NCBI GenBank assembly: GCA_903820745.1
Contig: CAIJIT010000049.1
Span: forward strand, 24,268 to 88,267
Length of the DNA: 64,000 nucleotides
Direction: 5' to 3'
DNA from: an uncultured Burkholderiales bacterium
GTDB lineage: Bacteria > Pseudomonadota > Gammaproteobacteria > Burkholderiales > Burkholderiaceae_C
Below are positions 33,091-62,673 of the stretch, in pieces. The position numbers and the translations under genes are program-made. The notes beneath the pieces are model-generated. The model had not been told where the DNA came from. It searched no databases and saw only the letters and a program-made list of their open reading frames with translations. Each line of letters starts with the position of its first letter. The first letter of the stretch is position 1.

Positions 33091-33106
33091 ACCGTGTAAG
33101 AAGGGG

Positions 33107-34692: not shown

Positions 34693-34708
34693 TTAACAAT
34701 TCATGAAC
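34693..34708 (+). promoter_or_regulatory. Direct-repeat box B: TTAAC-AATTCA-TGAAC
   Basis: 96 bp upstream of histidine kinase start (34597, minus). Confidence 0.45.
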
Positions 34709-34732
34709 ATCGACGATTGGGCGTTTCCGCCT

Positions 34733-35557: not shown

Positions 35558-35592
35558 CTTGTTTCCTTTTGAAATTGCTTTGCCGGCCACCG

Positions 35593-36654: not shown

Positions 36655-36655
36655 A

Positions 36656-38020: not shown

Positions 38021-38055
38021 GGGGTCAATCAGGCAAGGGTGAGTCGGCGCGGCGG

Positions 38056-38877: not shown

Positions 38878-39773
38878 GCCGCTGACGTCCTGGCGCTGAA
38901 GGCGCGGTTGGTCAACCAGGTCAGCATCGCCACGATCAGGAACAAGATCCAGCTCATCGCGCTCGAGCCGCCGAAGTCGTTGAAGTCAAAGGCCATGCGG
39001 TACAGGTAGACCGCCGAGGTCATCGCCGATTGGTCCGGGCCGCCCTTGCCATTGGTGAGGATGAACGGCTCTTCGAACAACTGCAGCCCGCCGATGACGC
39101 TGAGCATCACGCCGAAATAGATCATCGGTTTCAGGCTCGGCAAGGTGATGCGCCAGAACTGCTGCCAGCGGCCGGCGCCGTCCATCTCGGCGGCCTCGTA
39201 AAGGTCTTTCGGGATCGTCTGCAGCGCCGCCATATAGAGCACCAAATTGAAGCCGAGGTAACGCCAGAAGACGATCAGGGCGATCGCCGGCTTGATCGTG
39301 CCGGGCTTGTTCAGCCAGTCGATCGGCGCCAGGCCGAACAAGCGGTCGAGGCCCAGATTGACCAGACCATAGTCGCGCGAGAACAGCGAGCTGAACATGA
39401 TCGCGATTGCCACGCTGGAGGTGATGTAGGGCAGGAAATAGGCGCCGATCCAGAAATCCCGGCTGCGCGTGAACGACTGGTGGATGAACACCGCCAGCGG
39501 AATTGCCACCAGATGCTGGGGCAGCCCGGAGGCCAGCGCCAACCAGAGCGTATTGCCCAGCGACTTCCAGAACCAGGCGTCGCCAATGGCGAAGTAGAAG
39601 TTCTCCAGCCCGACATATTGCATCGCGCCCAGTCCGCTGGTCGGCTCCCAGGACTGGAAGGCCAGATAGAGCGAGAACAGCAGCGGGAAGACGCCGAACA
39701 AGGCGAACAGGGCCAGGAATGGGCTGATGAACAGATAAGGGGCCCAGCGGGGCGAAAGTCTCGGCATCTGCAT
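38874..39773 (-). CDS. Sugar ABC transporter permease (MalF type), system 2
   Basis: DLYEAAEMDGAGRWQQFWRITLPSLKPMIYFGVMLS. Confidence 0.94.
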   Translation of the reverse strand: MQMPRLSPRWAPYLFISPFLALFALFGVFPLLFSLYLAFQSWEPTSGLGAMQYVGLENFYFAIGDAWFWKSLGNTLWLALASGLPQHLVAIPLAVFIHQSFTRSRDFWIGAYFLPYITSSVAIAIMFSSLFSRDYGLVNLGLDRLFGLAPIDWLNKPGTIKPAIALIVFWRYLGFNLVLYMAALQTIPKDLYEAAEMDGAGRWQQFWRITLPSLKPMIYFGVMLSVIGGLQLFEEPFILTNGKGGPDQSAMTSAVYLYRMAFDFNDFGGSSAMSWILFLIVAMLTWLTNRAFSARTSAA

Positions 39774-39775
39774 GC

Positions 39776-44856: not shown

Positions 44857-47475
44857 GTGATGCAGCCGCCCTGCCTGCAATCCCGACCCCTGCCGCACCC
44901 CCGGCAGGGGTTTCCATTTCCGGCCCTGGGCCGCCGTTTTCCGATGCCAGTAGTTCCACGGCTCCCAGACTGCAACCGGCTACGGCTTCTGGCTGTGACG
45001 GGTTTCTTGCTGCTTGTTGCTTCCAGCTTTGCTGCATCGCCGGCAGACTGGCCGCAGATCCACAGCGCGATCCGCCAGGATCCGGCGGAGGAATCCCGCA
45101 TTGCCGCCATCGTGGCGCAAATGACGCTGGCGCAGAAGATCGGGCAGATGACCCAGCCCGAGATCAAGTTCATCACGCCGGATGAGGTCAAGCGCTTCTA
45201 TATCGGCTCGGTGCTCAACGGCGGCGGTTCCTGGCCAGGCAATGACAAGCGGGCTTCAGCCAGCGATTGGCTGCAACTCGCCGATGCTTATTGGGCTGCA
45301 TCGATGGCCACCGATGCGGCGGTCCAGCTGCCGCTGATCTGGGGCACCGACGCGGTCCATGGCCACAACAATGTACGCGGCGCCACGCTCTTTCCGCACA
45401 ATATTGGCCTTGGCGCGACGGCCGATGCCAAGCTGGTCGAGGCGATCGGCGCGGCCACGGCCAAGGCGGTTCGGGCCACCGGCATCCAATGGGTTTTTGC
45501 GCCGACGCTGGCGGTGGCCCAGGACATGAACTGGGGCCGCAGCTACGAGAGCTATTCCTCCGATCCGGCGCTGGTGGCGCGGCTCGGCGCGGCCTATGTG
45601 CGCGGCCTGCAAGGGCAGCTCAAGGATGACGCCAATGTCGTCGCCACGGCCAAACATTGGCTGGGCGATGGCGGCACCGACCAGGGCCGCGACCAGGGCG
45701 TCACCCTGGCCAGCCGCGAGCAGATGATAGCCATCCACTTGCAGGGCTATGTCGGCGCGATTGGCGCCGGCGCCCAGACGGTGATGGCTTCGTTCAATAG
45801 CTGGAACGATGTCAAGCAGGGCGTTAATTACGGCAAGATGCATGGCAGCCGCGCGCTGCTGACCGATGTGCTGAAGACAGCGATCGGTTTCGACGGCTTC
45901 GTCGTCTCCGACTGGAACGGCATCGGCCAGATTCCTGGCTGCAGCAATGCCAGCTGCGCCCAGGCGATCAATGCCGGCATCGACATGGTGATGGTGCCCG
46001 AGGAATGGCGCGCCTTCATCAAGAACACGATGGTGCAGGTCGAGCGCGGAGAAATCCCGATCGCGCGCATCGACGATGCGGTCAGCCGCATCCTGCGCGT
46101 CAAGCTGCGCGCCGGCTTGTTCGAGCAGTCGCCGGGCAAGAATGCCTGGGCCGGCCGGGCCGATGCGCTGCAGGACCGGGCGCTGGCGCGGCGCGCGGTG
46201 CGCCAGTCCCTGGTGCTGCTGAAGAACCAGCAGCAGGCGTTGCCGCTGCGCGCCGGCCAGCGTTTGCTGGTGGTCGGCAATAGCGCAGATAGCCTTGAAA
46301 ATCAGAGTGGCGGCTGGTCGCGGACCTGGCAGGGCAACGACAACAAGAACAGCGATTTCCCCGCCGGCCAGACGATCCTGTCCGCTGTTCGCGCGGCTGC
46401 GGGCGAGGGCCAAGTCAGCTTCAGCAAGACCGCCGCCGGCATCGACGTCAGGGCTTTCGACGCGGTAATTGCCGTGATCGGCGAGGCGCCTTATGCCGAG
46501 GGCAATGGCGATATTCCACCTTCGGGCACCTTGCGCCATTCGAGCCGCTATCCGCAAGACCTGGCGCTGCTCGACGCGGTGTGGGGCAAGGGCCCGAAGG
46601 TGATCACGGTTTTCGTCGCGGGCCGCCCGCTTTACACCAATGATTTGCTGAACCGCTCCGATGCCTTTGTGATGGCCTGGTTGCCCGGCACCGAGGGCGG
46701 CGGCGTGGCCGACTTGCTGTTCGCCAGTAGCGCCGGGGCTGACTTCAGCGGTCGCCTGCCCTTCGCCTGGCCGCAGGCCGCCTGCGCGGGTGGTAGGCCC
46801 TTGTTTGCTGCTGGTTATGGCCTGGCTTATGGCTCGGCCGGCGAAGTGGGCCGCCTTGCCGAGGAGATTCCGTCGGGCGGCTGTGGCGCGAGAAACGAGA
46901 TACAGATCTTCAGGCAAGCGGCGGTACCGCCCTATACCTTCGAAGTCGGCAGCGCGGTGGGCCGCTGGCAGGGGCGATCGATTCCGGACGATCCGAATCA
47001 GCGCCTGGCCATGCCGGCCCAGGGCGCGCCGGACATCGAGGTGTCGACGGTACAGATCCATACCCAGCAGGATGCCAAACGAATCGCCTGGTCGGGCCCG
47101 GCAAGGTTTTCGGCCTGGGGTTTGCAAAAAACTGATCTGAGCACCTTCCCTGAGGCCGCACTATTGTTTGACACTCGGGTCGAGCAGCCGCCACAGGCTC
47201 CGGTGACGCTGACGATGATCTGCGGCAGCGCTTGCCAGGGCTCGCTCGACCTCACCGATCTGTTCAAGCGCATGGCTTCGCAGCCGCCGCGCACCATCAA
47301 GATTGCGCTGGCCTGTTTTGCGGCGCGTGGCGTCTTGTTGAACCAGGTCGAAGTGCCTTGGCGCATCACCACGACCGGGCCTTTCATCGCCGCTTTTGCC
47401 AATATCCGTATCGCCGCCGGCGCCGCTCGCGACGCCGATGCCTTACCCTGCAATTCATTCCCCACCCTCCCATGA
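44857..47475 (+). CDS. GH3 beta-glucosidase / glucan glucohydrolase (ExoP-like C-terminus)
   Basis: AQKIGQMTQPE, GTDAVHGHNNV, nucleophile GFVVSDWNG; start may be 44944. Confidence 0.93.
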   Translation: MMQPPCLQSRPLPHPRQGFPFPALGRRFPMPVVPRLPDCNRLRLLAVTGFLLLVASSFAASPADWPQIHSAIRQDPAEESRIAAIVAQMTLAQKIGQMTQPEIKFITPDEVKRFYIGSVLNGGGSWPGNDKRASASDWLQLADAYWAASMATDAAVQLPLIWGTDAVHGHNNVRGATLFPHNIGLGATADAKLVEAIGAATAKAVRATGIQWVFAPTLAVAQDMNWGRSYESYSSDPALVARLGAAYVRGLQGQLKDDANVVATAKHWLGDGGTDQGRDQGVTLASREQMIAIHLQGYVGAIGAGAQTVMASFNSWNDVKQGVNYGKMHGSRALLTDVLKTAIGFDGFVVSDWNGIGQIPGCSNASCAQAINAGIDMVMVPEEWRAFIKNTMVQVERGEIPIARIDDAVSRILRVKLRAGLFEQSPGKNAWAGRADALQDRALARRAVRQSLVLLKNQQQALPLRAGQRLLVVGNSADSLENQSGGWSRTWQGNDNKNSDFPAGQTILSAVRAAAGEGQVSFSKTAAGIDVRAFDAVIAVIGEAPYAEGNGDIPPSGTLRHSSRYPQDLALLDAVWGKGPKVITVFVAGRPLYTNDLLNRSDAFVMAWLPGTEGGGVADLLFASSAGADFSGRLPFAWPQAACAGGRPLFAAGYGLAYGSAGEVGRLAEEIPSGGCGARNEIQIFRQAAVPPYTFEVGSAVGRWQGRSIPDDPNQRLAMPAQGAPDIEVSTVQIHTQQDAKRIAWSGPARFSAWGLQKTDLSTFPEAALLFDTRVEQPPQAPVTLTMICGSACQGSLDLTDLFKRMASQPPRTIKIALACFAARGVLLNQVEVPWRITTTGPFIAAFANIRIAAGAARDADALPCNSFPTLP

Positions 47476-48836
47476 CAGCCACCCACTTGCCCGCCATCAG
47501 CCGCAGCCAATTTCCCGCCGATTTCCGCTGGGGCTGCTCAACCTCCTCCTACCAGATCGAGGGCGCTGCCTTCGAGGATGGCCGCGGCGAATCGATCTGG
47601 GATCGCTTTTGCGCCACGCCTGGCCATATCCGCGACGGCAGCAGCGGCGCGGTCGCCTGCGACCATTACCACCGCTGGCCCGAAGACCTCGATCTGGCGC
47701 AAAGCCTCGGCGTCAATGCCTACCGCTTCTCGATCGCTTGGCCGCGCATCCTGCCAAGCGGCCGCAGCGCGATCAATCAAAAAGGCCTGGATTTCTATTC
47801 GCGCCTGGTCGACGGCATGCTCGAGCGCGGGCTGCAACCCTGGGCGACGCTGTACCACTGGGACCTGCCGCAGGCTTTGCAGGATCAAGGCGGCTGGGCC
47901 AGCCGTGAAACCGTCGATGCCTTTGTCGAATACACCGATGTGGTGACGAGATCGCTGGGCGACCGCGTCAAGCATTGGATCACCCACAACGAGCCTTGGT
48001 GCACCGCCTTTCTGGGCAACCATGGCGGTGGCCATGCGCCGGGCTTGAACAGCTACAAGACGGCCCTGCAGGTCTGTCACCATCTGTTGCTCTCGCATGG
48101 CATGGCGCTGCCGGTCATCCGTCGCAATGTGCCTGAAGCCCAGGCCGGCATCACCCTGAGCCTGCACCCGATCGTTGCGGCCACCGACAGCCCCGCCGAT
48201 GTCGCGGCGGCCTTGCGCCATGACGGCATGCGCAACCGCTGGTTCCTGGATCCTTTGTTCGGCCGTGGTTACCCGGCTGATGTGCTGCCCTTGCTGGGTG
48301 CCGACGCCCCCGATATGCATCACAGTGACCTGGCGCTGATCGCCACGCCCTGCGATTTTCTCGGCGTCAATTACTACTTTCCGGAGCGGGTCGGCGACGC
48401 GGCGGGCGACGGGCAGGACCATGGGCCGATCGCCACAACCGTGGTCTCGGCCCCCGATGTCGAGCGCACTGCGTTCGGCTGGGAGGTCGCACCCCAGGGC
48501 ATGGTCAGCTTGCTGCAGCGGGTTCAGCGCGACTATGCGCCGGCACAGATCTACCTGACCGAAAACGGTTCGACCTATGACGATGTGGTGAGCCCGGACG
48601 GCAGCATCGATGACCCGCAGCGGCGCAGCTATCTGGCCCGCCATCTGCTGGCGGCCCGCCAAGCCGTCGAGGCCGGTGTGCCGCTGAAAGGCTATTTCGC
48701 CTGGAGCCTGCTCGACAACTTCGAATGGGCCGAAGGCTATCTGCGCCGCTTCGGCCTGACCTATGTCGATTACGCGACCCAGCAGCGCCGGCTCAAGGCC
48801 AGCGGGGTCTGGTACCGCGAGTTCTTGCACCGCTGA
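47472..48836 (+). CDS. GH1 beta-glucosidase
   Basis: FPADFRWGCSTSSYQIEGA, THNEPW, IYLTENGSTY. Confidence 0.95.
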   Translation: MTATHLPAISRSQFPADFRWGCSTSSYQIEGAAFEDGRGESIWDRFCATPGHIRDGSSGAVACDHYHRWPEDLDLAQSLGVNAYRFSIAWPRILPSGRSAINQKGLDFYSRLVDGMLERGLQPWATLYHWDLPQALQDQGGWASRETVDAFVEYTDVVTRSLGDRVKHWITHNEPWCTAFLGNHGGGHAPGLNSYKTALQVCHHLLLSHGMALPVIRRNVPEAQAGITLSLHPIVAATDSPADVAAALRHDGMRNRWFLDPLFGRGYPADVLPLLGADAPDMHHSDLALIATPCDFLGVNYYFPERVGDAAGDGQDHGPIATTVVSAPDVERTAFGWEVAPQGMVSLLQRVQRDYAPAQIYLTENGSTYDDVVSPDGSIDDPQRRSYLARHLLAARQAVEAGVPLKGYFAWSLLDNFEWAEGYLRRFGLTYVDYATQQRRLKASGVWYREFLHR

Positions 48837-48842: not shown

Positions 48843-50072
48843 ATGGCTCGACTCCTGAAACTCGCGGCCATCGGCCTGGCCTTGCTGGCCGGTACGGTGC
48901 AGGCCCAGGCACTCAGGGCCGAAGTGATCCATTGGTGGACCGCAGGCGGTGAATCGGCAGCGGTAAAAACGCTGGCCGAAGCCTACCGCGCTGCAGGGGG
49001 TGTCTGGGTTGACAACGCGGTGGCTTTGGGCGAGCAGGCCCGGGCGGTGGCGATCAACCGCATCGTCGGCGGCAACCCGTCGACTGCGGCCCAGTTCAAC
49101 ACCTCGAGGCAGTTTCTCGATCTGGTCGAGCAGGGCATGTTGAACAACGTCGACGCGGTGGCGCTGCAGGGCGGCTGGGACAAGTTCCTGCCCGAGACGG
49201 TGCTCAGCGTGATCAAGGTCAACGGGCATTTCTATGCCGCACCGGTCAGCATCCATATGCCGACCTGGATCTGGACTTCGAAAGCCGCTTTCAGGAAAGC
49301 CGGCATCGCGACCGAGCCGCGCACGATGGACGAGTTGTTCGCTGCGCTCGACAAGCTCAAAGCCGCCGGCCTGGTGCCGCTAGCCCATGGCGGCCAGGCC
49401 TGGCAGGACAATATTGTTTTTACCGCTGTGCTGGCCAATCTTGGCGGGCGCGAGTTGTATTTGAAAGTGCTGCGCGATCGCGACCCGAAGGCGATTCAGT
49501 CCGATGCTTTCAAGCAGGTGTTGCTGACCTTCAAGCGGCTGCAGACCTATGTCGACGAAGGCTCGCCCGGGCGCAACTGGAACGACGCGACCGCGCTGTT
49601 GATCAAGGGACAGGCCGGCGTCCAGTTCATGGGTGACTGGGCCAAGGGCGAGTTCGGTCTGGCCGGCCAGCGGCCGGGCCGCGACTATGCTTGCATCCCC
49701 GGCTTTGGCGCCAACTCGCCCTACATCATCCAGGGCGATGTTTTCGTCTTCCCCAAGACCAATAAACCCGAGCAGATCAAGGCGCAGCAACTGCTGGCCA
49801 GCGTGATCACTGCGCCGGCCACGCAGGTGGCGTTCGCAGCGCGCAAGGGCTCGATCCCGATCCGCAGCGATGTCGATGTCGGCCGGCTCGACGAATGTGC
49901 GCGTCAGGGCGTGACGATCATGAAGGACAAGGCCCGACAACTGGGCAATGGCGAGGTCTATCTGACGCCCGACCAGAACGGTGCCCTGACCGACATCCTG
50001 ACCGCCTACTGGAATCGCAAGACGCCGGTCGAGAAGGTGCAAAAGGACATCGCGGCGGCGCTGAAACCATGA
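48843..50072 (+). CDS. Sugar ABC transporter substrate-binding protein, system 3
   Basis: EVIHWWTAGGESAAVKTLAEAY; GQAGVQFMGDWAKGEFG; paralogous to system 1 SBP. Confidence 0.93.
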   Translation: MARLLKLAAIGLALLAGTVQAQALRAEVIHWWTAGGESAAVKTLAEAYRAAGGVWVDNAVALGEQARAVAINRIVGGNPSTAAQFNTSRQFLDLVEQGMLNNVDAVALQGGWDKFLPETVLSVIKVNGHFYAAPVSIHMPTWIWTSKAAFRKAGIATEPRTMDELFAALDKLKAAGLVPLAHGGQAWQDNIVFTAVLANLGGRELYLKVLRDRDPKAIQSDAFKQVLLTFKRLQTYVDEGSPGRNWNDATALLIKGQAGVQFMGDWAKGEFGLAGQRPGRDYACIPGFGANSPYIIQGDVFVFPKTNKPEQIKAQQLLASVITAPATQVAFAARKGSIPIRSDVDVGRLDECARQGVTIMKDKARQLGNGEVYLTPDQNGALTDILTAYWNRKTPVEKVQKDIAAALKP

Positions 50073-50938
50073 AGCTGCGGCCCGGCATGGCCTGGTTCGC
50101 GCTGTTGCCGATGGCGGTGACGGTGCTGCTGGTCTATCTGGGCACGGTCTTGTGGTCGCTGCGGGTGTCGCTGAGCAGTTCGCGCACCTTCCCCAAGGAT
50201 GATTTCGTCGGTCTGGCGCAATACACCCGCTTGTTCGACAACGAACGCTGGCTGACCTCGCTGCAGAACCTGGCCGTCTACGGCCTGTTGTTCATCCTGG
50301 CCAGCATGGTGATCGGCTTTTTGCTGGCTGTATTCATTGATCAAAAGGTCAAGGCCGAAAGCTTGTTGCGCAGCGCTTTTCTCTACCCTTATGCAATGTC
50401 CTTCGTCGCGACCGGTCTGGTCTGGCAATGGGTGTTGAACCCCGGCCAGGGCATCCAGCATGCGCTGCGGCAATGGGGTTGGCGCGAGTTCAGCTTCGAC
50501 TGGATCGTCGACCAGGACAAGGTGATCTATACCGTCGTCATCGCCAGCGTCTGGCAGGCAGCGGGCCTGGTGATGGCGCTGCTGCTGGCCGGCCTGCGCG
50601 GTATCGACGAAGAGCTCTGGCGCGCCACGCGGATCGACGGCATCCCGGCATGGCGTGTCTATCTGTCGGTGGTGCTGCCGATGCTGGCCCCCACCTTGGC
50701 CACGGTCTTCGTGCTGCTGGCAACCGGCGTGATCAAGGTCTTCGACATGGTCGTGGCGATGACGCAGGGCGGCCCCGGCATTGCCAGCGAACTGCCGGCC
50801 AAATTCATCATGGACCATCTGTTCGGCCGCGCCAATATCGCGCTGGCCTCGGCCGGCGCCATCACGTTGTTGCTGACCGTGCTGGCGCTGGCCGCGCCGC
50901 TGCTTTACGCGCGCCGCCGCAGTCAGGCCCGGGCATGA
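50069..50938 (+). CDS. Sugar ABC transporter permease (MalF type), system 3
   Basis: ELWRATRIDGIPAWRVYLSVVLPMLAPTLATVFVLL; ATGA overlaps on both sides. Confidence 0.94.
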   Translation: MKLRPGMAWFALLPMAVTVLLVYLGTVLWSLRVSLSSSRTFPKDDFVGLAQYTRLFDNERWLTSLQNLAVYGLLFILASMVIGFLLAVFIDQKVKAESLLRSAFLYPYAMSFVATGLVWQWVLNPGQGIQHALRQWGWREFSFDWIVDQDKVIYTVVIASVWQAAGLVMALLLAGLRGIDEELWRATRIDGIPAWRVYLSVVLPMLAPTLATVFVLLATGVIKVFDMVVAMTQGGPGIASELPAKFIMDHLFGRANIALASAGAITLLLTVLALAAPLLYARRRSQARA

Positions 50939-51783
50939 AGCAGATCGGCCGTCTCGGTGTCTATGCCTTCCTGGTCGGCGCGGCGCTGTTCTTCCTCGCG
51001 CCGCTCTACATCATGGTCATCACCTCGCTGAAATCGATGGAAGAAATCCGCGCCGGACAGCTCTTTTCGTTGCCACTCGAGCTGACGCTGGCGCCCTGGC
51101 GCGCCGCCTGGAGCGAGGCTTGCACCGGTCTGTCCTGCGAAGGCGTCAGCGTCGGCTTCTGGAACTCGGTCAGCATCGTCATCCCGGCCACGATCCTGCC
51201 GATTCTGCTCGGCGCCTTGAATGGTTATGCCTTGAGTTGCTGGCGCCCGCGTGGCGCCGATGCGCTGTTCGCCTTGTTGATGCTCGGGGCTTTCATTCCG
51301 GTGCAGGTGATGATCTACCCGCTGGTCAAGATGCTCGCTGCGGTCGGCCTGTTCGGCTCGCTGCCCGGCATCGTGCTGGTCCACATCATCTTCAGCATGC
51401 CGGTGATGACGCTGCTGTTCCGCAACTATTACCTGGCGATTCCGCGGGAGTTGTTCAATGCCGCAAGGATCGACGGCGGAGGCTTCTGGCGCATCTTTGT
51501 CGAGCTGATGCTGCCGATGTCGACACCGATCATCATCGTTGCGGCGATCATGCAGGTGACCGGTGTCTGGAAGGACTACATCCTCGGCCTGGTCTTCGCT
51601 GGCCACGACAACCTGCCGATGACGGTGCAGCTGAACAATGTCATCAACACCACCACTGGCGAGCGCCTTTACAACGTCAATATGGCCGCCACCCTGCTCA
51701 CTTCGATGCTGCCCTTGCTGGTCTATTTCGTCTCGGGGCGCTGGTTTGTCCGTGGCATCACGGCTGGCGCGGTGAAGGGCTGA
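50935..51783 (+). CDS. Carbohydrate ABC transporter permease (MalG type), system 3
   Basis: ELFNAARIDGGGFWRIFVELMLPMSTPIIIV; FVRGITAGAVKG C-terminus like system 1. Confidence 0.94.
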   Translation: MKQIGRLGVYAFLVGAALFFLAPLYIMVITSLKSMEEIRAGQLFSLPLELTLAPWRAAWSEACTGLSCEGVSVGFWNSVSIVIPATILPILLGALNGYALSCWRPRGADALFALLMLGAFIPVQVMIYPLVKMLAAVGLFGSLPGIVLVHIIFSMPVMTLLFRNYYLAIPRELFNAARIDGGGFWRIFVELMLPMSTPIIIVAAIMQVTGVWKDYILGLVFAGHDNLPMTVQLNNVINTTTGERLYNVNMAATLLTSMLPLLVYFVSGRWFVRGITAGAVKG

Positions 51784-51790: not shown

Positions 51791-52888
51791 ATGAAGCACA
51801 CCGACCCGTCCCGCAAGAACGCCGTCAAGGTCAGCCGGCTGGCCATCAATTTTGGCGCCAGCCAGGTCATCAAGGGGCTCGATCTGGAAGTTGCCGAGGG
51901 CGAATTCCTGGTGCTGCTGGGCCCGTCGGGTTGCGGCAAATCGACCTTGCTGAACGGCATTGCCGGCTTGATCGAGGTTGCCGAAGGCCGCATCGAAATC
52001 GGCGGACAGGACATGGCGCAGGCCGACCCGAGCTTGCGCGGGATCGGCATGGTTTTCCAGTCCTATGCGCTTTACCCGACGATGACGGTCGAGCGCAATA
52101 TCTCTTTCGCACTGCGCGTCAGCGGCTGCCCGAAGCCGGAAATCGCCCAGCGCGTGCAGCAGGTCGCGCAACTGCTGCAACTCGAGCCGCTGCTGCAGCG
52201 CCGACCGGCGCAGTTGTCGGGTGGCCAGCGCCAACGGGTGGCGATCGGCCGCGCGCTGGTGCGCCAGGCCAAGGTGCTGCTGTTCGACGAGCCGCTCTCG
52301 AACCTCGACGCCAAGCTGCGCACCGAACTGCGCCGCGAGCTCAAGCTGCTGCACAAGAAGCTCGGCTCGACGATGATTTATGTCACCCATGACCAGGTCG
52401 AAGCAATGACGCTGGCGAGCCGCATCGTCGTCATGCGCGAGGGTCAGATCCAGCAGATCGGCGCACCGGCCGAGGTTTACGACAGGCCCGCCAACCGGTT
52501 CGTCGCCGGCTTTCTCGGCGCCCCGGGGATGAACTTCATCGCTGGCCAGATGCAACTGGCCTCGTCTGGCGCTGCTTCGCTGGCATTGCCGTTGGCAGTC
52601 GACCTGTCAGCCTATGCCTTCGAGGCGCGGCCGCTGCAAAATCAGCCGATCTTGCTGGGCATCAGGCCCGAGCATGTGCTGATCAGCGCTGACGGAGACT
52701 TTGCGGGCAAGGTCCAGCTGATCGAGCCCATGGGCAACCACCAGGTGCTCTGGATCGAGTCGGCCGGGCAGACAATGGCCGCAGTCACCCACGAAGCAAT
52801 GAACCTGACCGTCGACAGCGAATTGCGCTTCAGCTTTGACCCCGCCCGCTTCTCGCTGTTTGACCCGGCCTCCGGACAACGGATTTGA
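51791..52888 (+). CDS. Sugar ABC transporter ATP-binding protein, system 3
   Basis: [51 protein letters not shown]. Confidence 0.95.
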   Translation: MKHTDPSRKNAVKVSRLAINFGASQVIKGLDLEVAEGEFLVLLGPSGCGKSTLLNGIAGLIEVAEGRIEIGGQDMAQADPSLRGIGMVFQSYALYPTMTVERNISFALRVSGCPKPEIAQRVQQVAQLLQLEPLLQRRPAQLSGGQRQRVAIGRALVRQAKVLLFDEPLSNLDAKLRTELRRELKLLHKKLGSTMIYVTHDQVEAMTLASRIVVMREGQIQQIGAPAEVYDRPANRFVAGFLGAPGMNFIAGQMQLASSGAASLALPLAVDLSAYAFEARPLQNQPILLGIRPEHVLISADGDFAGKVQLIEPMGNHQVLWIESAGQTMAAVTHEAMNLTVDSELRFSFDPARFSLFDPASGQRI

Positions 52889-52898: not shown

Positions 52899-54416
52899 AT
52901 GAGCCTCCATCCCCTGAAAAAAATCGTCGTCGTCGGCGGCGGAACGGCCGGCTGGATGACGGCTGCGATGCTGTCCAAGCTGCTGACGCCGACTTACCAG
53001 GTGCGGCTGATCGAGTCTGACGAGATCGGCATCATCGGCGTCGGTGAGGCCACCATCCCGCATATCCGCGCCTTCAATCTGGCCTTGGGCATCGACGAAG
53101 ACGAGTTCGTTCGTGCCACCCAGGGCACCTTCAAACTCGGCATCGAGTTCGTCAACTGGGGTGCGATCGGCGATCGCTATATCCACGGTTTCGGCAAGGT
53201 CGGCCAGGAACTCGACGCGATTTCCTTTCACCATTACTGGCTGCGCCTGCTCGGCGAAGGCAGCCGCCAGGCTGGCGACCTGAGTGAATACTCACTTAAC
53301 ACGATGGCGCCCAAACATGCGAAGTTCATGCGCGCACGGCCCGACATGGCCGGCTCGCCGCTGGCCGACCTGAACAGCGCCTTCCATTTCGACGCCAGCC
53401 TCTACGCACGCTTTCTGCGCGGCTTTGCCGAGCAGCGCGGCGTGCAGCGCACCGAAGGCAAGATCGAGCAGGTCCTGCAGCGCGAGCCCGACGGCCATAT
53501 CAGCGCCTTGCGCCTGGCCAGCGGCGAGCTGATCGAGGGCGATTTCTTCATTGACTGCTCGGGCATCCGCGCCCTGCTGATCGAGCAGACCTTGAAAACA
53601 GGCCATGAAGACTGGACCCATTGGCTGCCCTGCGACCGCGCTTATGCCGTGCCCTGTGCATCGGCCGGCCCTTTGCTGCCGATGACGCGCTCGACCGCCC
53701 ATGGCTCTGGCTGGCAATGGCGGATTCCGCTGCAGCACCGTACCGGCAATGGCCATGTCTATTCGAGCCGCTTCATGGGCGACGACGAAGCCAAGGCCAT
53801 CCTGCTGGCCAACCTCGACGGCGAGCCGCTGGCCGAACCGCGCCAGGTGAAGTTCGTCACCGGCCGGCGGCGCCAGTTCTGGAACGGCAATTGCGTCGCG
53901 ATCGGCCTGTCGAGCGGCTTTCTCGAGCCGCTCGAGTCGACCAGCATCCACCTGATCCAAATGGGCATCACAAGGCTGATGGCGATGTTCCCTCATGCCG
54001 GGCTCGACCAGGCCGACATCGACGAATACAACCGCCAGACCAGGTCCGAATACGAAAGCATCCGCGACTTCATCATCCTGCATTACAAGGCCACCGAGCG
54101 CAGTGACACCCCGTTCTGGAACTATTGCCGCACCATGTCCGTCCCCGAATCGCTGCAGCGCAAGATCGATCTGTTCAGCAGCAACGCGCGCTTTTTCCGC
54201 GATGGCAACGAGTTGTTCACCGAGCTGAGCTGGTTGCAGGTGTTGATCGGCCAGCGCATCCGCCCGCGCGGCTACCACCCCTTTGTCGACCACCGGCCGC
54301 GCGCCGAGGTTGAGGAATTCGTCAGCAATATCCGCGAGGTGATCCAGCGCTGCGTTGCGGTGATGCCGACGCAAGCTGATTTCATCGCCGCCAATTGCAC
54401 GGCCAAGCCGCTATGA
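52899..54416 (+). CDS. Tryptophan halogenase family flavoprotein, copy 1
   Basis: GGGTAGWMTAAML, TFKLGIEFVNWG, GWQWRIPLQHR (WxWxIP), SGFLEPLESTSIHLIQ. Confidence 0.93.
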   Translation: MSLHPLKKIVVVGGGTAGWMTAAMLSKLLTPTYQVRLIESDEIGIIGVGEATIPHIRAFNLALGIDEDEFVRATQGTFKLGIEFVNWGAIGDRYIHGFGKVGQELDAISFHHYWLRLLGEGSRQAGDLSEYSLNTMAPKHAKFMRARPDMAGSPLADLNSAFHFDASLYARFLRGFAEQRGVQRTEGKIEQVLQREPDGHISALRLASGELIEGDFFIDCSGIRALLIEQTLKTGHEDWTHWLPCDRAYAVPCASAGPLLPMTRSTAHGSGWQWRIPLQHRTGNGHVYSSRFMGDDEAKAILLANLDGEPLAEPRQVKFVTGRRRQFWNGNCVAIGLSSGFLEPLESTSIHLIQMGITRLMAMFPHAGLDQADIDEYNRQTRSEYESIRDFIILHYKATERSDTPFWNYCRTMSVPESLQRKIDLFSSNARFFRDGNELFTELSWLQVLIGQRIRPRGYHPFVDHRPRAEVEEFVSNIREVIQRCVAVMPTQADFIAANCTAKPL

Positions 54417-55924
54417 CCCATCCGACCGCGCTCAATATCGTCATCGTCGGAGGCGGCACGGCAGGCTGGATGACGGCGGCGGCGCTGTCCAAACGGCTCG
54501 GCGATCAGTACCGGATCCAGCTGGTTGAATCGGACGAAATCGGCACCATCGGTGTGGGTGAAGCGACGATTCCGAACATCAAGAACTTCAACGCGACCTT
54601 GGAAATCGACGAGGACGATTTCATCCGCGCCACCCAGGGTACGTTCAAGCTGGGCATCGAGTTCGTCGACTGGGGCGCCATCGGTGACCGCTATATCCAT
54701 GGGTTTGGCAAGGTCGGGCAGGAATTCGACGCCCTGGCCTTTCACCATTACTGGCTGCGCCTGCGCCGGCAGGGGCTGGCCAGCGATCTGGGCGACTATT
54801 CGATCAACACGGTGGCGCCGTTGCAGGCCAAGTTCATGCGCCCGCGCCCCGAGATGGCCGGCTCGCCGCTGGCTGAGATCGCCTATGCCTACCATTTCGA
54901 TGCCAGCCTGTATGCGCGCTTTCTGCGCGACTATGCCCAAAAGCGTGGTGTGCTGCGCAGCGAAGGTCGGGTCGTCGAGGTGCTGCAACGTGAGCCCGAT
55001 GGTCACATCACCGGCGTCAGGCTCGCTGGCGGCGAATTGATCAGCGGTGATTTTTTCATCGACTGTTCGGGCATCTGCGCGCTGCTGATCGAGCAGACCT
55101 TGCCTTGCGGTTATGACGATTGGCGCCATGGGTTGCCCTGCGACCGTGCGATCGCCCTGCCCTGCGCCAGCGCCGGGCCCCTGTTGCCGATCACGCGCTC
55201 GACTGCGCGCAGCGCCGGCTGGCAATGGCGCATCCCCTTGCAGCACAGGATCGGCAACGACCCTGTCTATTCCAGCCGCTTCATGGGCGACGAAGAAGCC
55301 GGCGCCATCCTGCTTGCCAACCTGGACGCCGATCCCTTGGCCGAACCGCGCACGATCGCCTATGTACCCGGCAGGCGCAAGCAGTTCTGGAACCGCAACT
55401 GTGTCGCGATCGGACTGGCCGCCGGATTCTTCGAGCCAATTGAATCGACCAATATCCAGCTGATACAGACCGCCCTGGCGCGGCTGATCGCCTTCTTTCC
55501 GCATGCCGGCATCGAGCCGGCCGATGTCGACGAGTACAACCGGCAAACCGAGTTTGAATATGAGCGCATTCGCGACTTCATCATCCTGCATTACAAGGCG
55601 ACCACCCGCGACGATTCGGCCTGCTGGAACGACTGCCGCGGGATGGACATCCCGGACACCCTGCAGCGCAAGATCGACCTCTATGCCAGCAACGGACGCA
55701 TCTTCCGCGAGGGCGGCGAGTTGTTCGCCGAGCTGAGCTGGTTGCAGGTCATCCAGGGTCAGGGTATCGAGCCGAGGGGCTATCACCCCTTCACCGACAA
55801 ACTGCCGCAGCAAGACCTGCTTGAATTTAGGGCCAATGTGAAGGATGGGATCAAGCGCTGCGCCAAGGTGATGCCGGATCAAGCTGAGTTCATCAAGGAA
55901 CACTGCGTGGCGGGGCAGCGATGA
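54413..55924 (+). CDS. Tryptophan halogenase family flavoprotein, copy 2
   Basis: GGGTAGWMTAAAL, TFKLGIEFVDWG, GWQWRIPLQHR, AGFFEPIESTNIQLIQ; clear paralogue of copy 1. Confidence 0.93.
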   Translation: MTHPTALNIVIVGGGTAGWMTAAALSKRLGDQYRIQLVESDEIGTIGVGEATIPNIKNFNATLEIDEDDFIRATQGTFKLGIEFVDWGAIGDRYIHGFGKVGQEFDALAFHHYWLRLRRQGLASDLGDYSINTVAPLQAKFMRPRPEMAGSPLAEIAYAYHFDASLYARFLRDYAQKRGVLRSEGRVVEVLQREPDGHITGVRLAGGELISGDFFIDCSGICALLIEQTLPCGYDDWRHGLPCDRAIALPCASAGPLLPITRSTARSAGWQWRIPLQHRIGNDPVYSSRFMGDEEAGAILLANLDADPLAEPRTIAYVPGRRKQFWNRNCVAIGLAAGFFEPIESTNIQLIQTALARLIAFFPHAGIEPADVDEYNRQTEFEYERIRDFIILHYKATTRDDSACWNDCRGMDIPDTLQRKIDLYASNGRIFREGGELFAELSWLQVIQGQGIEPRGYHPFTDKLPQQDLLEFRANVKDGIKRCAKVMPDQAEFIKEHCVAGQR

Positions 55925-56769
55925 GGCCGGCGCTGAGGCTGCTGGCCTGCTGGCTGGCCCTGGTCGTGCCAGCGGCCTTTGCTGTCGATGCAGCGCAGCC
56001 CTTCAACGTCGCCACCTACAACTTGCGGCTCAATCTCGCCCAGGATGGCGTCAACGCCTGGCCCAAGCGCAAGGAGGCGGTCAAGGCCTTGATCCGCTAT
56101 CACGAGTTCGACATTTTCGGCACCCAGGAAGGCCTGCCCTTGCAGATTGACGAGCTGGCCGAGATGGCCGAGTTTGCCTATGTCGGCGTTGGCCGCGATG
56201 ACGGCCAGCGCGCCGGCGAACATGCGGCGATCTTCTTTCGCAAGGCGCGCTTCAAGGCCTTGAAACATGGCGACTTCTGGTTCAGCGAAACACCAGACCG
56301 GCCGTCGAAGGGCTGGGATGGACGCTGCTGCAACCGGCTGGCCAGCTGGGTGCAGTTGCACGACCGGCTCAGCGGCCGCAGCTTCTATGTTTTCAGCTCG
56401 CATTTCGACCATGAGGGCGTGCAGGCCAGGCGCGAGTCGGCCAGGCTGCTGCTGCGCAAGATCGCCGAGATCGCGGCCGATTCACCGGTGATCAATCTGG
56501 GCGATTTCAACTCGACGCCCGAGACTGAGCAGATTCAACTGATGCAAGCGGCGCTGCGTGATGCCTACCGGGTCAGCGAGACCGCGCCCTATGGTCCGGT
56601 CGGTACCTTCAACGATTTCAAGATCGACGCCGCCATGGCCGAGCGCATCGACTATGTCTTTCTCAGCCCCGGCTTTCGGGTGCTCAAGTACGCCGTGCTC
56701 AGCGACTCCTACGCCGGGCGCTTCCCTTCTGACCATCATCCGGTCGCGGTGCGGCTGAGCCTGGACTGA
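55921..56769 (+). CDS. Endonuclease/exonuclease/phosphatase (EEP) family protein, secreted
   Basis: Signal peptide; VATYNLRLN, FDIFGTQEGLPLQIDEL, SSHFDHEGVQARRESARLL, NLGDFNSTPE, RIDYVFLSPGF, SDHHPVAVRL. Confidence 0.92.
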   Translation: MRPALRLLACWLALVVPAAFAVDAAQPFNVATYNLRLNLAQDGVNAWPKRKEAVKALIRYHEFDIFGTQEGLPLQIDELAEMAEFAYVGVGRDDGQRAGEHAAIFFRKARFKALKHGDFWFSETPDRPSKGWDGRCCNRLASWVQLHDRLSGRSFYVFSSHFDHEGVQARRESARLLLRKIAEIAADSPVINLGDFNSTPETEQIQLMQAALRDAYRVSETAPYGPVGTFNDFKIDAAMAERIDYVFLSPGFRVLKYAVLSDSYAGRFPSDHHPVAVRLSLD

Positions 56770-56770: not shown

Positions 56771-59020
56771 ATGCTCGTCTTGGACTCAAAACAGGCGCGT
56801 CATTGCGCAGCAGCCTTGCTGCTCTTCACCCTGACCCTGGGCGCCAAAGCACAGACCTTGCAGGACAAGGCCGAGCGCCTGCTGCAGCAGATGACGGTCG
56901 AGGAAAAGATCGGTCAGTTGACCCAATATTCGGGCGACTGGCGAGCCACCGGTCCGGTGACTTTCAAGGGCAACCATGAAGAGGGCATCCGGGGTGGCCA
57001 GATCGGCGCGATGTTGAATGTGCTGGGCGCCAATTCAACCCGCGCCTACCAGCAGATTGCGATGCAGTCGCGCCTGAAGATCCCGCTGCTGTTCGGCCAG
57101 GACGTGATCCATGGCTACAAGACCACCTTCCCGATTCCGCTGGCCGAAGCCGCCAGCTTTGACCTCGAAGCGATCGAGCGTTCGGCGCGAATTGCCGCCA
57201 CCGAAGCTGCCGCCAGCGGCGTCCACTGGACATTCGCGCCGATGGTCGACATCGCCCGCGATCCGCGCTGGGGCCGGGTGATGGAAGGCGCTGGCGAGGA
57301 CAGCTGGCTGGGGTCGAAAATCGCCTATGCCCGTGTGAAGGGATTCCAGGGGCGCCAGCTCGGCGACACCGATGCGGTGATGGCCACGGTCAAGCATTTC
57401 GCCGCCTATGGCGCCGCGGCTGCCGGCCGCGATTACAACTCGGTCGACATGAGCGAGCGGATGCTCTGGGAAACCTATCTGCCGCCGTTCAAGGCAGCGC
57501 TCGACGCGGGTGCCGCGACCTTCATGAACGCCTTCAACGATTTGAACGGCATCCCGGCCAGTGGCAGCCAATACCTGCAGCGCGAGATCCTCAAAGGGCG
57601 CTGGGGCTTCAGCGGCTTTGTCGTCTCTGACTGGGGTTCGATCGGCGAGATGGTCCCGCATGGCTATGCCAAGGACGCCAGGGGCGCGGCGCTGGCTGCG
57701 ATCAAGGCCGGCAGCGACATGGACATGGAGAGCAACGCCTACCGCAACCACCTCGGGTCATTGATCGCTGACGGCCTGGTGCCGGCAACGCTGCTCGACG
57801 ATGCGGTGCGCCGGATCCTGCGCAAGAAGTTCGAGCTCGGCCTGTTCGACGATCCCTATCGCTTCAGCGATGCCAAGCGCGAGCTGGCGATGTTGAACCA
57901 GCCTGCGCACCGCCAGGCGGCACGCGATATGGCGGCCAAAAGCATCGTGCTGCTGAAGAACAAGCCGCGCATCCTGCCCTTGAGCGCCAGCGGCAAGACC
58001 ATTGCCTTCATCGGGCCGTTGGTCAAGGCCGTCGAAGACAACCTGGGCGCCTGGTCGGTGAAGCTGCCTGATGTCGACTATTCGAAGTTCATCGTCTCGC
58101 AATGGGAAGGTGTGAAAAACCGTCTCGGCCCGGGCAGTAAATTGCTCTACGCCAAAGGCTGCGACATCGAGGGCGAACGGCGCGACGGCTTCAAGGAAGC
58201 GGTAGCCGCAGCGCTGCAGGCCGATGTCGTGGTGGTCAGCGTTGGCGAGAGCGCCGGCATGAGCGGCGAGGCCAAGAGCCGCGCCAGGATCGGCCTGCCC
58301 GGCGTGCAGGAAGAGCTGATCAAGGCCCTGCATGCCACCGGCAAACCGATCGTCGTGCTGATCAACGCCGGCCGGCCGCTGATCTTCAACTGGACTGCCG
58401 AGCATGCGCATGCGATTCTCTACACCTGGTGGCTGGGTAGCGAGGCCGGCAACGCCATCGCCGATGTGCTGTTCGGCGCGCACAACCCTTCGGCGCGTCT
58501 GCCGATCAGCTTCCCGCGTGCGGAAGGCCAGATTCCGATCTATTACAACCATTTCAATACCGGCCGTCCGGTATCGGCTGACACGCAGGACGCCTTCAAG
58601 TCCGGCTATATCGACCTGCAGAATTCGCCGCAATACCCCTTCGGTTTCGGCCTCAGCTACAGCGACTTCGAATATGCCGATTTGAAGCAAGACCGGCAGA
58701 AAATTGCCGGCCAGGACAAGCTCACCGTTTCGTTGAAAGTCAGCAACACGGGGCGACTGGCCGGCGACGAATTGGTGCAGCTTTATCTGCGCGATCGGGT
58801 CGCTTCGGTGGTGCGGCCGGTCAAGGAATTGCGCGGTTTTCGGCGCATCCATCTGCAGCCGGGCCAGACCCGCGAGCTCAGCTTTGTGATCGACCGCGAA
58901 CAGCTGTCATTCTTCAACGAGCGCCTGCAATGGGCGGCCGAGCCCGGCGAGTTCGACCTGATGATCGGTGCGAGTTCAGCTGACATCAGGCTGCGCAGCA
59001 GCTTCGAGCTCACTGAATGA
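56771..59020 (+). CDS. GH3 beta-glucosidase (BglX-like)
   Basis: VEEKIGQLTQYSGDW, QDVIHGYKTTFPIPLAEAAS, WGFSGFVVSDWGSIGEMVPHG; fibronectin III-like C-terminus. Confidence 0.95.
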   Translation: MLVLDSKQARHCAAALLLFTLTLGAKAQTLQDKAERLLQQMTVEEKIGQLTQYSGDWRATGPVTFKGNHEEGIRGGQIGAMLNVLGANSTRAYQQIAMQSRLKIPLLFGQDVIHGYKTTFPIPLAEAASFDLEAIERSARIAATEAAASGVHWTFAPMVDIARDPRWGRVMEGAGEDSWLGSKIAYARVKGFQGRQLGDTDAVMATVKHFAAYGAAAAGRDYNSVDMSERMLWETYLPPFKAALDAGAATFMNAFNDLNGIPASGSQYLQREILKGRWGFSGFVVSDWGSIGEMVPHGYAKDARGAALAAIKAGSDMDMESNAYRNHLGSLIADGLVPATLLDDAVRRILRKKFELGLFDDPYRFSDAKRELAMLNQPAHRQAARDMAAKSIVLLKNKPRILPLSASGKTIAFIGPLVKAVEDNLGAWSVKLPDVDYSKFIVSQWEGVKNRLGPGSKLLYAKGCDIEGERRDGFKEAVAAALQADVVVVSVGESAGMSGEAKSRARIGLPGVQEELIKALHATGKPIVVLINAGRPLIFNWTAEHAHAILYTWWLGSEAGNAIADVLFGAHNPSARLPISFPRAEGQIPIYYNHFNTGRPVSADTQDAFKSGYIDLQNSPQYPFGFGLSYSDFEYADLKQDRQKIAGQDKLTVSLKVSNTGRLAGDELVQLYLRDRVASVVRPVKELRGFRRIHLQPGQTRELSFVIDREQLSFFNERLQWAAEPGEFDLMIGASSADIRLRSSFELTE

Positions 59021-59050
59021 GCTACCGTATGAGCTACCGTATGAGCTACC
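59017..59050 (+). repeat. 12-bp tandem repeat ATGAGCTACCGT at the GH2 start codon
   Basis: ATGAGCTACCGT ATGAGCTACCGT ATGAGCTACC giving MSYRMSYRMSYQ. Confidence 0.95.
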
Positions 59051-60888
59051 AAATTTTGCGCTCGTTGATGCTGTTGCTGGCGCTGCTCGTCCTGCGGCCC
59101 TGCCAAGCGCTGGAACAGCCTTTGTTGACCAATCTGGCGAACCGTCAGACGATCTCGCTGAACGGTGCCTGGCAGGCCATCGTCGACCCTTATGAAGCCG
59201 GCTATTACAACTATCGGCGCGAGCCCTATGACCGGCAAACGCAGCGATCAAATTCGGCCTTTTACAGCAACCATCATGCAGCGGACAAGGCGGAGCTGGT
59301 CGAATATGACTTCGACAAATCGCCGACGCTGAACGTGCCCGGCGACTGGAATTCGCAAAGCGAAAAGCTCTTTTACTACGAGGGCAATGTCTGGTTGAAG
59401 CGCAGCTTTGACTTCAGCCCCAGCCAGCAAGGCGGGCGGATATTCATCCATTTCGGCGCCGTCAGCCAGCGCGCCGAGGTCTACCTGAACGGCACCAAGC
59501 TCGGCGTTCATGACGGGGGGTTCACGCCCTTCAATTTCGAGGTCACGGCCTGGCTCCAACCGAAGGGGAATTTCCTTGTCGTCAAGGTTGACAACATCCG
59601 GCGCGCCGAAGCCGTGCCGACCAGCAGCACCGACTGGTGGAACTACGGCGGCATCACCCGCGATGTCACGCTGATCGAAGAACGCAAAACTTTTATCGAA
59701 GACCATGTCCTGCAGTTGAAGCCGGGCACGCTGCAGACGCTGGCCGGGGCCATCCGTTTGAATGGCGCAACCGGCAGCGAGCGGGTGACGGTCAGCATCC
59801 CCGAACTGCATCTCGAGAGGGTCGTCAGCGTTGATCGCGCCGGCTTGGCCAGTTACGAGATCGAAGCGCCGGGCCTGAGCCTCTGGTCGCCGGCCCGGCC
59901 CAAGCTCTACGCGGTGGTCGTCACGCTCGGTGCGCAAGCCTTGCGCGACGCGATCGGCTTTCGCAGCATCGCAACGCACGGCGCTGAGATCCTGCTGAAC
60001 GGGCAGCCGATCTTCCTGCGCGGCATTTCGATCCACGAAGAAAACGCGCTGCAAGGCCGGCGTGCCTACAGCGAGGCCGATGCGCGGCAGGCCTTGAGCT
60101 GGGCCAAAGAGCTCGGCTGCAACTATGTGCGTCTGGCCCATTACCCGCACAACGAAGCGATGCTGCGGCTTGCCGACCAAATGGGCTTGATGGTCTGGGA
60201 GGAAATCCCGGTCTACTGGACCATCGCCTTCAGCAATCCCGCCACCTTGGCCAATGCCAGCGAACAGCTGGCGGCCATGATCCGGCGCGACCGCAACCGC
60301 GCCTCGGTGATCATTTGGTCAGTGGCGAATGAAACGCCGCCGGGTGCGGCGCGCAATGCCTTTCTCGCCCACCTGATCGATCAGACCCGCCGACAGGATC
60401 CGGGCCGGTTGGTCAGCGCGGCGCTCGAAACCCATCAGGAAGGCGAGGTGACGGTCGTCTCGGACCCGATGGGCGAGTTGCTGGACATCGTCGCCTTCAA
60501 CCAATACCGCGGCTGGTATGGCGGCAGCCTTGATGATGCGCCGCAGGCGCGCTGGGAGATCCGCTCTGACAAGCCGGTGCTGGTGTCGGAATTTGGCGGC
60601 GGCGCGCTGCAGGGCCTGCATGGCCCGCGCGAGCAGCGCTGGACCGAGGAATACCAGGCCTATCTGTACCAGCAGAACCTGGCGATGCTGGAAAAAATCC
60701 CGAATCTGCGCGGCCTGAGCCCCTGGATTCTGGCCGACTTCCGCTCACCAAGGCGGGTCTTGCCCGGCATCCAGGACGGCTACAACCGCAAGGGCCTGAT
60801 CTCCAATCAGGGCATCAGGAAGCAGGCATTTTTCACGCTGCAGGATTTCTATCGAAAGATCGCGGCGCGCGGCTCGCAAGCCGAATAG
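59017..60888 (+). CDS. GH2 family glycoside hydrolase
   Basis: Sugar-binding/Ig/TIM organisation; FLRGISIHEENALQGRRAYSEADARQALSWAKELGCNYVRLAHYPHNE; acid/base SVANETP; nucleophile-like VLVSEFGGG. Confidence 0.9.
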   Translation: MSYRMSYRMSYQILRSLMLLLALLVLRPCQALEQPLLTNLANRQTISLNGAWQAIVDPYEAGYYNYRREPYDRQTQRSNSAFYSNHHAADKAELVEYDFDKSPTLNVPGDWNSQSEKLFYYEGNVWLKRSFDFSPSQQGGRIFIHFGAVSQRAEVYLNGTKLGVHDGGFTPFNFEVTAWLQPKGNFLVVKVDNIRRAEAVPTSSTDWWNYGGITRDVTLIEERKTFIEDHVLQLKPGTLQTLAGAIRLNGATGSERVTVSIPELHLERVVSVDRAGLASYEIEAPGLSLWSPARPKLYAVVVTLGAQALRDAIGFRSIATHGAEILLNGQPIFLRGISIHEENALQGRRAYSEADARQALSWAKELGCNYVRLAHYPHNEAMLRLADQMGLMVWEEIPVYWTIAFSNPATLANASEQLAAMIRRDRNRASVIIWSVANETPPGAARNAFLAHLIDQTRRQDPGRLVSAALETHQEGEVTVVSDPMGELLDIVAFNQYRGWYGGSLDDAPQARWEIRSDKPVLVSEFGGGALQGLHGPREQRWTEEYQAYLYQQNLAMLEKIPNLRGLSPWILADFRSPRRVLPGIQDGYNRKGLISNQGIRKQAFFTLQDFYRKIAARGSQAE

Positions 60889-60921: not shown

Positions 60922-62391
60922 ATGACCAAACCCTTGCTCCTGCGCCACTTATTACGCGGCCTGCCGGCCATCCTGGTGCTGGCCGCTGGTTGCGGTTCGG
61001 GCGGATCCTCTTCGGCCGGTGCCGGCAACCCGCTCAGCGGCCTGCAGGTGCAGGCCTGGGTGACCAGCGCCGACAAGACGCTGCTACTGGCCCGCGTGGC
61101 CGACCCGGTTTTCACGGAGTTGCAGCCGGTGGCTTTGACGATCGATGTCGATGCGAGCCAGCGCTTCCAGACCATGGCCGGCTTCGGTGCGGCGATCACT
61201 GATGCCTCGGCCTGGCTGATCCAGAACCGCATGAGCGAGCCGCAGCGCGATGCCTTGTTGCGGGAGTTGTTCGGCCGCGGGCCCGATGGCATCGGCTTTG
61301 ATTTCGCCCGCCTGACGATCGCTGCTTCGGACTATTCGCTCTCCCATTACAGCTTCGACGATCTGCCAGCCGGCCAGACCGACATGGCCTTGGCGGGCTT
61401 TTCGATCGACCCGCTGCGTGCTGCAACGCTGCCGGTCGTCAAGCGCGCACTGGCCGTGAATCCACAGCTGCAGTTGATGGCTTCGCCCTGGAGCGCGCCG
61501 GCCTGGATGAAATCCAGCGGCAGCATGATCAAGGGCAGCCTGAAGCCCGAGATGTACGGCGTTTATGCCGCCTATCTGGGGCGCTATCTGGATGCGATGG
61601 CAGCCGAGGGTGTGCCGATTTTTGCTTTGACCTTGCAGAATGAGCCTGATTTCGAGCCCGGCGACTACCCCGGCATGCGCGTCGATGCGGCGGCCAGGGC
61701 TGCCTTGATCGGCCAGCATTTGGGTCCCTTGCTGGCCAGCCGCAGCCTGAAGACCCGCTTGTTCGATTGGGACCATAACTGGGACCAGCCGCAATCGCCG
61801 CTGGCGGTGCTCGGCGATCCGATTGCAAGGCCCTTTGTTGCCGGCGTGGCCTGGCATTGCTATGCCGGCGATGTCTCGGCCCAGAGCCAGGTGCATGACG
61901 CCTACCCCGACAAGGAAGCCTGGTTCACCGAATGCGCCGGTGGCGATTGGGCGCCGAACTGGGCGGTCAGCCTGCCCTGGCTGATGCATAACCTGGTCAT
62001 CGGCAGCACCCGGGCCTGGGCCAAGGGCGTGCTGATGTGGAACCTGGCGCTGGACGAAAACCATGGGCCGCATCTCGGCGGCTGCAAGGACTGCCGCGGC
62101 GTTGTCACGATCGATTCGAAAAGCGGCGCGGTGACCCGCAATCTCGAGTATTACGGTCTGGCCCATGCCAGCAAGTTCGTGCGTCAGGGGGCACAGCGCA
62201 TCGCCTCGTCGGCTGCCCAGGACGGGGTCGAATCGGTGGCCTTCCGCAATGCTGATGATGGGTCCATCGCCTTGATCGTCTGCAATAACGAGGCCCAACC
62301 GCGCAGCTTTGCCGTGCGTTTTGCCGGTCGGCAATTCACGCAGCAGTTGCCGCCGCAGAGCGTCGCCACCTATACCTGGGCGGCACCCTGA
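60922..62391 (+). CDS. GH30 glycoside hydrolase lipoprotein (glucosylceramidase / endo-beta-1,6-glucanase-like)
   Basis: Lipobox LAAGCGSGG; TMAGFGAAITDASAWLIQ; acid/base LQNEPDFEPGDYPGM; nucleophile WFTECAGGDW. Confidence 0.93.
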   Translation: MTKPLLLRHLLRGLPAILVLAAGCGSGGSSSAGAGNPLSGLQVQAWVTSADKTLLLARVADPVFTELQPVALTIDVDASQRFQTMAGFGAAITDASAWLIQNRMSEPQRDALLRELFGRGPDGIGFDFARLTIAASDYSLSHYSFDDLPAGQTDMALAGFSIDPLRAATLPVVKRALAVNPQLQLMASPWSAPAWMKSSGSMIKGSLKPEMYGVYAAYLGRYLDAMAAEGVPIFALTLQNEPDFEPGDYPGMRVDAAARAALIGQHLGPLLASRSLKTRLFDWDHNWDQPQSPLAVLGDPIARPFVAGVAWHCYAGDVSAQSQVHDAYPDKEAWFTECAGGDWAPNWAVSLPWLMHNLVIGSTRAWAKGVLMWNLALDENHGPHLGGCKDCRGVVTIDSKSGAVTRNLEYYGLAHASKFVRQGAQRIASSAAQDGVESVAFRNADDGSIALIVCNNEAQPRSFAVRFAGRQFTQQLPPQSVATYTWAAP

Positions 62392-62406: not shown

Positions 62407-62673
62407 GCGCCAAGGGGCCAGCCCTTGCTCGGTTTCACGATTGCCGGCGCTGCGCAGATCTTCCGGCCGGCTCAAGCAAGCTTCGTTGATGACCGCGTGA
62501 TCGCCTCGCATCCGCAATTGCGCCATCCGCAAGCAGTGCGTTTCGGTTGGATCGACAACCCGCAGGAAAGCAATCTTTTCAACAGCGCCGCCCTGCCCGC
62601 TGCACCCTTCCGCATTGATGGCTGGCCGCTGTTGACGCAAGGGGTATTGCTCCCGCGGGTCGACTTCGACTGA
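62407..62673 (+). pseudogene. C-terminal remnant of a sialate O-acetylesterase-like gene
   Basis: In-frame GQPLLGFTIAGAAQIFRPAQASFVDDRVIASHPQLRHPQAVRFGWIDNPQESNLFNSAALPAAPFRIDGWP resembles the family C-terminus; catalytic N-terminal part absent. Confidence 0.7.

Follow-up and report, generated by a model that had tools for sequence, protein, structure and literature searches.

The overlapping genes HAL-A and HAL-B, located in a glucan operon of an uncultured Burkholderiales bacterium, are a real and correctly described feature that belongs to an already known halogenase family. Neighbourhood counts across genomes revealed that the constant partner of these halogenases is a subfamily of outer-membrane receptors and not a metabolite pathway. 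We consider it rather probable that the two genes represent old group C paralogues serving receptor-based uptake in general, with HAL-A being the working copy and HAL-B being redundant and probably failing in this genome. The pairing of family members in tandem is ordinary, whereas the consistent partnership with the receptor is the part that needs an explanation. Group C halogenases are carried by many bacteria, and this partnership narrows the search for their natural substrate.

Halogenase genes and glucan operon

The window, i.e. the whole stretch of 64,000 nucleotides that was analysed, contains an operon extending from the TonB receptor gene at position 42041 to the end of the GH30 gene at position 62391. 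The following features were assigned in this region:

42041-44839, plus strand: TonB-dependent receptor of the TonB-Xanth-Caul subfamily (TIGR01782; NCBIfam 569 bits, cut-off 310)
44995-47475, plus strand: GH3 glycosidase with ExoP galactose-binding C-terminal domain (PF00933, PF01915, PF18559; start from a codon-usage gene caller)
47472-48836, plus strand: GH1-type beta-glucosidase (gene call; family named from the sequence; seven orthologous operons have copies with 73-78% identity)
48843-50072, plus strand: ABC sugar-binding protein (Pfam SBP_bac_1)
50069-50938 and 50935-51783, plus strand: two ABC permease genes (names based on sequence and context; copies in orthologous operons are 80-84% identical)
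51791-52888, plus strand: MalK/UgpC-like ABC ATPase (Pfam ABC_tran, TOBE_2; NCBIfam UgpC 424 bits, just below the cut-off of 432)
52899-54416, plus strand: HAL-A, intact group C member of the flavin-dependent halogenase family (505 aa; PF04820 653 bits)
54413-55924, plus strand: HAL-B, group C paralogue of HAL-A that is probably impaired here (503 aa; PF04820 624 bits)
55921-56769, plus strand: EEP-family protein (PF03372; accompanies the B-type halogenase in the sister operons L037, L038 and L042-L044)
56771-59020, plus strand: GH3 beta-glucosidase BglX (NCBIfam 820 bits, over the cut-off of 666)
59017-60888, plus strand: GH2 glycosidase (PF02836, PF02837)
60922-62391, plus strand: GH30 protein, nearest model endo-1,6-beta-glucanase (PF02055; NF053856 323 bits, under the cut-off of 700)
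62413-62640, plus strand: remnant of an acetylesterase-type gene, about 76 codons (57% tblastn match to L037 protein residues 579-654; gene intact in sister operons)

The glucan-uptake setting proposed in the initial annotation is borne out by the presence of the TonB receptor, an ABC sugar transporter and GH3, GH1, GH2 and GH30 genes in one operon. Beta-1,6-glucan is the putative target of the operon, given that the best model for the GH30 protein is endo-1,6-beta-glucanase, though with a score below its cut-off. With a receptor beside glycosidases and a sugar transporter, the region has the make-up of a TonB-receptor carbohydrate locus and resembles the CUT loci (Blanvillain 2007, PMC1790865) that likewise combine a receptor, glycoside hydrolases and inner-membrane transport. 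It differs from these in that the halogenase is an extra and widespread component here, the word halogenase being absent from PMC1790865. As also noted initially, the halogenase genes are flanked by the ABC ATPase gene on the 5' side and by the EEP and GH3 (bglX) genes on the 3' side, and the ORF lists of the window contain no ORF of NRPS/PKS size. Just upstream of the operon, two more sugar ABC transporter clusters, one of them with a GH1-like gene, are located on the minus strand (25500-41041).

HAL-A and HAL-B overlap by 4 bp (ATGA), as do HAL-B and the EEP gene at position 55921, and the deduced halogenases are 69% identical. Both fill the Pfam Trp_halogenase profile (PF04820, cut-off 21 bits) over its full length (profile positions 1-457/458). 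All motifs quoted in the initial annotation were located in both proteins: GGGTAGW at residue 13, with G13-G18 forming the GxGxxG pattern, the catalytic lysine K79, WQWRIP at residue 272 of HAL-A (W272/W274/I276/P277) and residue 270 of HAL-B, and the catalytic glutamate E346 of HAL-A or E344 of HAL-B, the numbering of HAL-B being offset by two residues after about position 120. The halide-binding loop is kept as EST-S in HAL-A and as EST-N in HAL-B. Among 140 homologues, Lys79, Glu346, Ser347 and WxWxIP are invariant, and Thr348 is present in 139.

The sequences of HAL-A and HAL-B place them among the non-tryptophan "group C" halogenases such as BrvH and Xcc4156. A comparison by eye with the motif table of PMC8269204 detected the group C motif types ATxPxx (ATIPHI/ATIPNI) and HxFGx (HGFGK) and, in neither sequence, a Trp4 motif (YYHG..YS-type loop). 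The Phe and Ser residues named as indole contacts of BrvH are also kept in both proteins (ELFTELSW at 438 in HAL-A, ELFAELSW at 436 in HAL-B).

The closest solved structures are 9luq, Xcc4156 (6y1w) and BrvH (6frl). The closest in sequence is 9luq, a 'tryptophan halogenase' with 569 bits to HAL-A, on which no paper was found in the literature collection searched. Xcc4156 from Xanthomonas campestris shows full-length homology (517 bits to HAL-A, 511 bits to HAL-B) and shares the EST-N loop (T-N pair) with HAL-B, but has been reported as brominating only; it acts on indoles and not on tryptophan, and its native substrate is unknown (PMC7336383). The Brevundimonas indole halogenase BrvH (PMC5945002) is homologous over its full length (479 bits to HAL-A), with the same catalytic Lys and Glu residues and the T-S halide pair of HAL-A, and is devoid of the Trp-binding loop; its pocket was noted as open and similar in this respect to the one of MibH, a peptide halogenase. 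Next to the BrvH gene lies a further halogenase gene, although the two products are only 42.7% identical, as compared with 69% for HAL-A and HAL-B. BrvH originates from a marine alphaproteobacterium, and its published description is silent on TonB receptors (PMC5945002). Both BrvH and Xcc4156 are active brominating halogenases. Free indoles, but not tryptophan, are halogenated by BrvH and by the Xanthomonas enzymes, all of which either prefer bromide or depend on it and lack a known natural substrate (PMC5945002, PMC7336383). The tryptophan 7-halogenases PrnA and RebH belong to the same fold family, and K79 and E346 of HAL-A coincide with the PrnA numbering, but the match is far weaker (about 289 bits or less) and the residues binding free tryptophan are not retained in group C.

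Association of halogenases with TonB-dependent receptors

The link between halogenases and TonB receptors that had been noted for Caulobacter and Xanthomonas was supported by two neighbourhood counts. A survey of 18 members of the genus yielded 78 halogenase-family matches and, among the matches listed, 115 TonB-Xanth-Caul receptors over the family cut-off. A receptor is located within 8 kb of 58 of the 78 halogenases, compared to 2.3 expected by random placement, an expectation that presumes uniform placement. Many of the halogenases without this linkage lie at contig ends or belong to the long glucan operon itself. Two genomes of the genus lack halogenases, one of them (G015) being devoid of TonB-Xanth-Caul receptors and the other (G010) having three. 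Outside the genus, the 80 loci best by similarity, which are not a random sample, stem from alpha-, beta- and gammaproteobacteria and include 61 with a receptor within 8 kb and 41 with a receptor directly upstream.

The hydrolases encoded beside the halogenases are diverse and include amylases (GH13), GH30, GH43, GH2, GH9 and GH92 enzymes, mannosidases, xylosidases and others, and sugar transport is provided by either MFS or ABC systems. Since the sugar enzymes vary and the receptor is constant, a halogenase activity in service of the receptor system is favoured, and the neighbourhoods are best read as pointing to a role connected with the receptor and not with the sugar. The third halogenase gene of this genome is split between the ends of the contigs C287 and C299 (L004, L075), as indicated by an exact protein overlap, and adjoins another TonB receptor together with an amylase-type protein, assigned by the resemblance of the locus to L045.

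Halogenase-linked receptors cluster on the receptor tree, with 5 label changes compared to 18.3 in shuffles. Halogenase and receptor distances are correlated (r = 0.88 for 31 loci, 0.68 for 35 loci), which partly reflects the common inheritance of whole loci. When the linked receptors were searched for a diagnostic aromatic residue, Trp458 turned out to be shared by the 48 linked members of the main clade and replaced by Tyr in four unlinked receptors, but two more receptors counted as unlinked also carry Trp, and it is absent from other linked ones. The receptor of the window is only about 60% identical to that of the orthologous operon in the close relative G014, while HAL-A is nearly unchanged, which speaks against the halogenase being closely matched to its particular receptor. 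The receptor has diverged as if under diversifying pressure or by recombination: when the window (42041-44839) is aligned with the G014 operon (L036, 1954-4731), the identity falls from 95% in the N-terminal part to about 40% in the barrel, with most of the operon at 95-100%.

Possible roles of the halogenases

According to the reading that we favour, FADH2 delivered by a reductase encoded elsewhere would react with O2 to form a flavin hydroperoxide, which would oxidise bromide or chloride to HOX. The latter would travel through the tunnel to Lys79 and, with Glu346, modify an indole or phenol exposed on a cytoplasmic substrate larger than free tryptophan. Candidates for this substrate include peptides, proteins and small molecules. 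The reaction is placed in the cytoplasm because no signal peptide is evident by eye at the N-terminus of the HAL proteins. Halogenation in vivo, the substrate and the link of the halogenase activity to the receptor are inferred, and the activity would serve the receptor uptake system in general and not the chemistry of one sugar. Two results count against this reading: no flavin reductase was found among the scanned operon proteins or among the 25 commonest neighbour families, and HAL-A does not closely track the receptor in the comparison with G014.

A bolder and rather unlikely version is that halogenases, SapC and Cupin_8 proteins form a toolkit modifying TonB receptors or a receptor-bound peptide by bromination or oxidation of aromatic residues, thereby tuning sugar uptake. 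If true, this would be post-translational halogenation within primary metabolism. The literature collection searched contained no work tying halogenase, SapC, cupin and TonB together. Genes encoding SapC (PF07277), usually followed by Cupin_8 (PF13621), were observed between or before receptor-linked halogenase genes in L067 (9253-10972), L056, L060, L065, L068 and L071, the halogenase of L067 having an additional C-terminal domain of about 250 aa.

Alternatively, the enzymes might be flavin monooxygenases in vivo, with the in vitro halogenation by their relatives being a side reaction. The low activity of these relatives, their bromide preference and the lack of a known natural substrate are in line with this assumption, as is the occurrence of Cupin_8 and DUF6445-type proteins, which resemble oxygenases, at receptor-linked loci. 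However, the strict conservation of Lys79, Glu346, Ser347 and WxWxIP, together with the almost invariant Thr348, is hard to explain without halide chemistry, and WxWxIP is thought to prevent monooxygenation, so that we regard a purely oxygenating function as improbable. The halogenation of aromatic aglycones or aryl glucosides freed from plant or fungal glucans, for detoxification or nutrition, would fit the several beta-glucosidase-type enzymes of the operon and the acceptance of free indoles by related enzymes, but is quite improbable, as the same halogenases accompany amylases, mannosidases, xylosidases and other enzymes at loci that share no aromatic substrate, and no aromatic catabolism gene was found among the scanned operon proteins.

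Lineages of the two copies and the condition of HAL-B

The orthologous operons of sister species separate the two halogenases. The A-type gene occurs alone in G025 and G004, with no EEP gene after it, and the B-type gene occurs alone in G005, G001, G009, G012 and G013, followed by the EEP gene; both types are found together only in this genome and in G014. A fresh local duplication was ruled out by the halogenase tree and by the rejection of a one-clade constraint on the four A and B sequences (p-AU 0.0019), although the fork on the B side of the tree has moderate support only (81/97). HAL-A and HAL-B are thus deduced to be two old lineages. They derive either from an ancestral pair that was reciprocally lost or from the recombination of two operon types, and both origins imply that one copy suffices.

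The initial annotation took the two retained copies as a hint of a heterodimer or of two substrates, and sequential action on the latter may be envisaged. This view is compatible with the 4-bp overlap and the joint retention in two species, with arrays of two to five halogenase genes in 13 of the 80 outside loci, most of them adjoining a receptor, and with the halogenase neighbour of BrvH. It further gains from a fusion protein in the species G017, a counter-hint to redundancy: immediately downstream of a TonB receptor gene, a single in-frame ORF of at least 944 aa (L059, G017:C238, 3144-5975), open to the contig end, encodes two halogenase domains that belong to different subfamilies. However, joint retention, as expected for an obligate heterodimer, is not the rule, since seven sister operons manage with a lone A-type or B-type gene, and the HAL-B copy of this genome lacks an otherwise invariant glycine and has evolved under relaxed constraint. 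The two types therefore look interchangeable, redundancy fits better, and a heterodimer or a division of substrates is a distinctly unlikely explanation of the pair. Arrays of four or five halogenase genes by a TonB receptor were observed in alphaproteobacteria and Alteromonadaceae (L138, L128, L130, L133, L141, L142, L151 and L153).

The suggestion that both enzymes look catalytically competent did not hold for HAL-B, whose catalytic motifs are intact but which carries radical substitutions elsewhere. Relative to their G014 counterparts, HAL-A has 4 changed residues and HAL-B has 24. Outgroup polarisation assigned 15 silent and 18 replacement changes in HAL-B to the branch of this genome, compared to 11 and 1 on the G014 branch; the respective numbers for HAL-A are 11 and 2 compared to 25 and 0. 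HAL-B carries G283D at a position occupied by Gly in 139 of 139 homologues, and W240G, H284P, R222C, H231P, F404C, M447I and M473R are likewise seen in none of the 139. HAL-A, by contrast, shows no deviation at any of the 113 alignment columns for which conservation among the 140 homologues is 95% or higher. HAL-B thus fails a test for freedom from disabling changes, as judged from the sequence, and the branch counts along with the changes absent from its relatives suggest that it is probably decaying in this strain. The changes may reflect an assembly error, but this error would need to leave HAL-A untouched. Two copies accordingly do not equal two functions, one of the pair in the window probably failing.

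Gene loss is also apparent in the G014 operon, which is devoid of the ABC transporter genes but has kept a 236-bp remnant of the binding-protein gene, a decayed 5' portion located between the GH1 gene and HAL-A (L036, 8800-9034).
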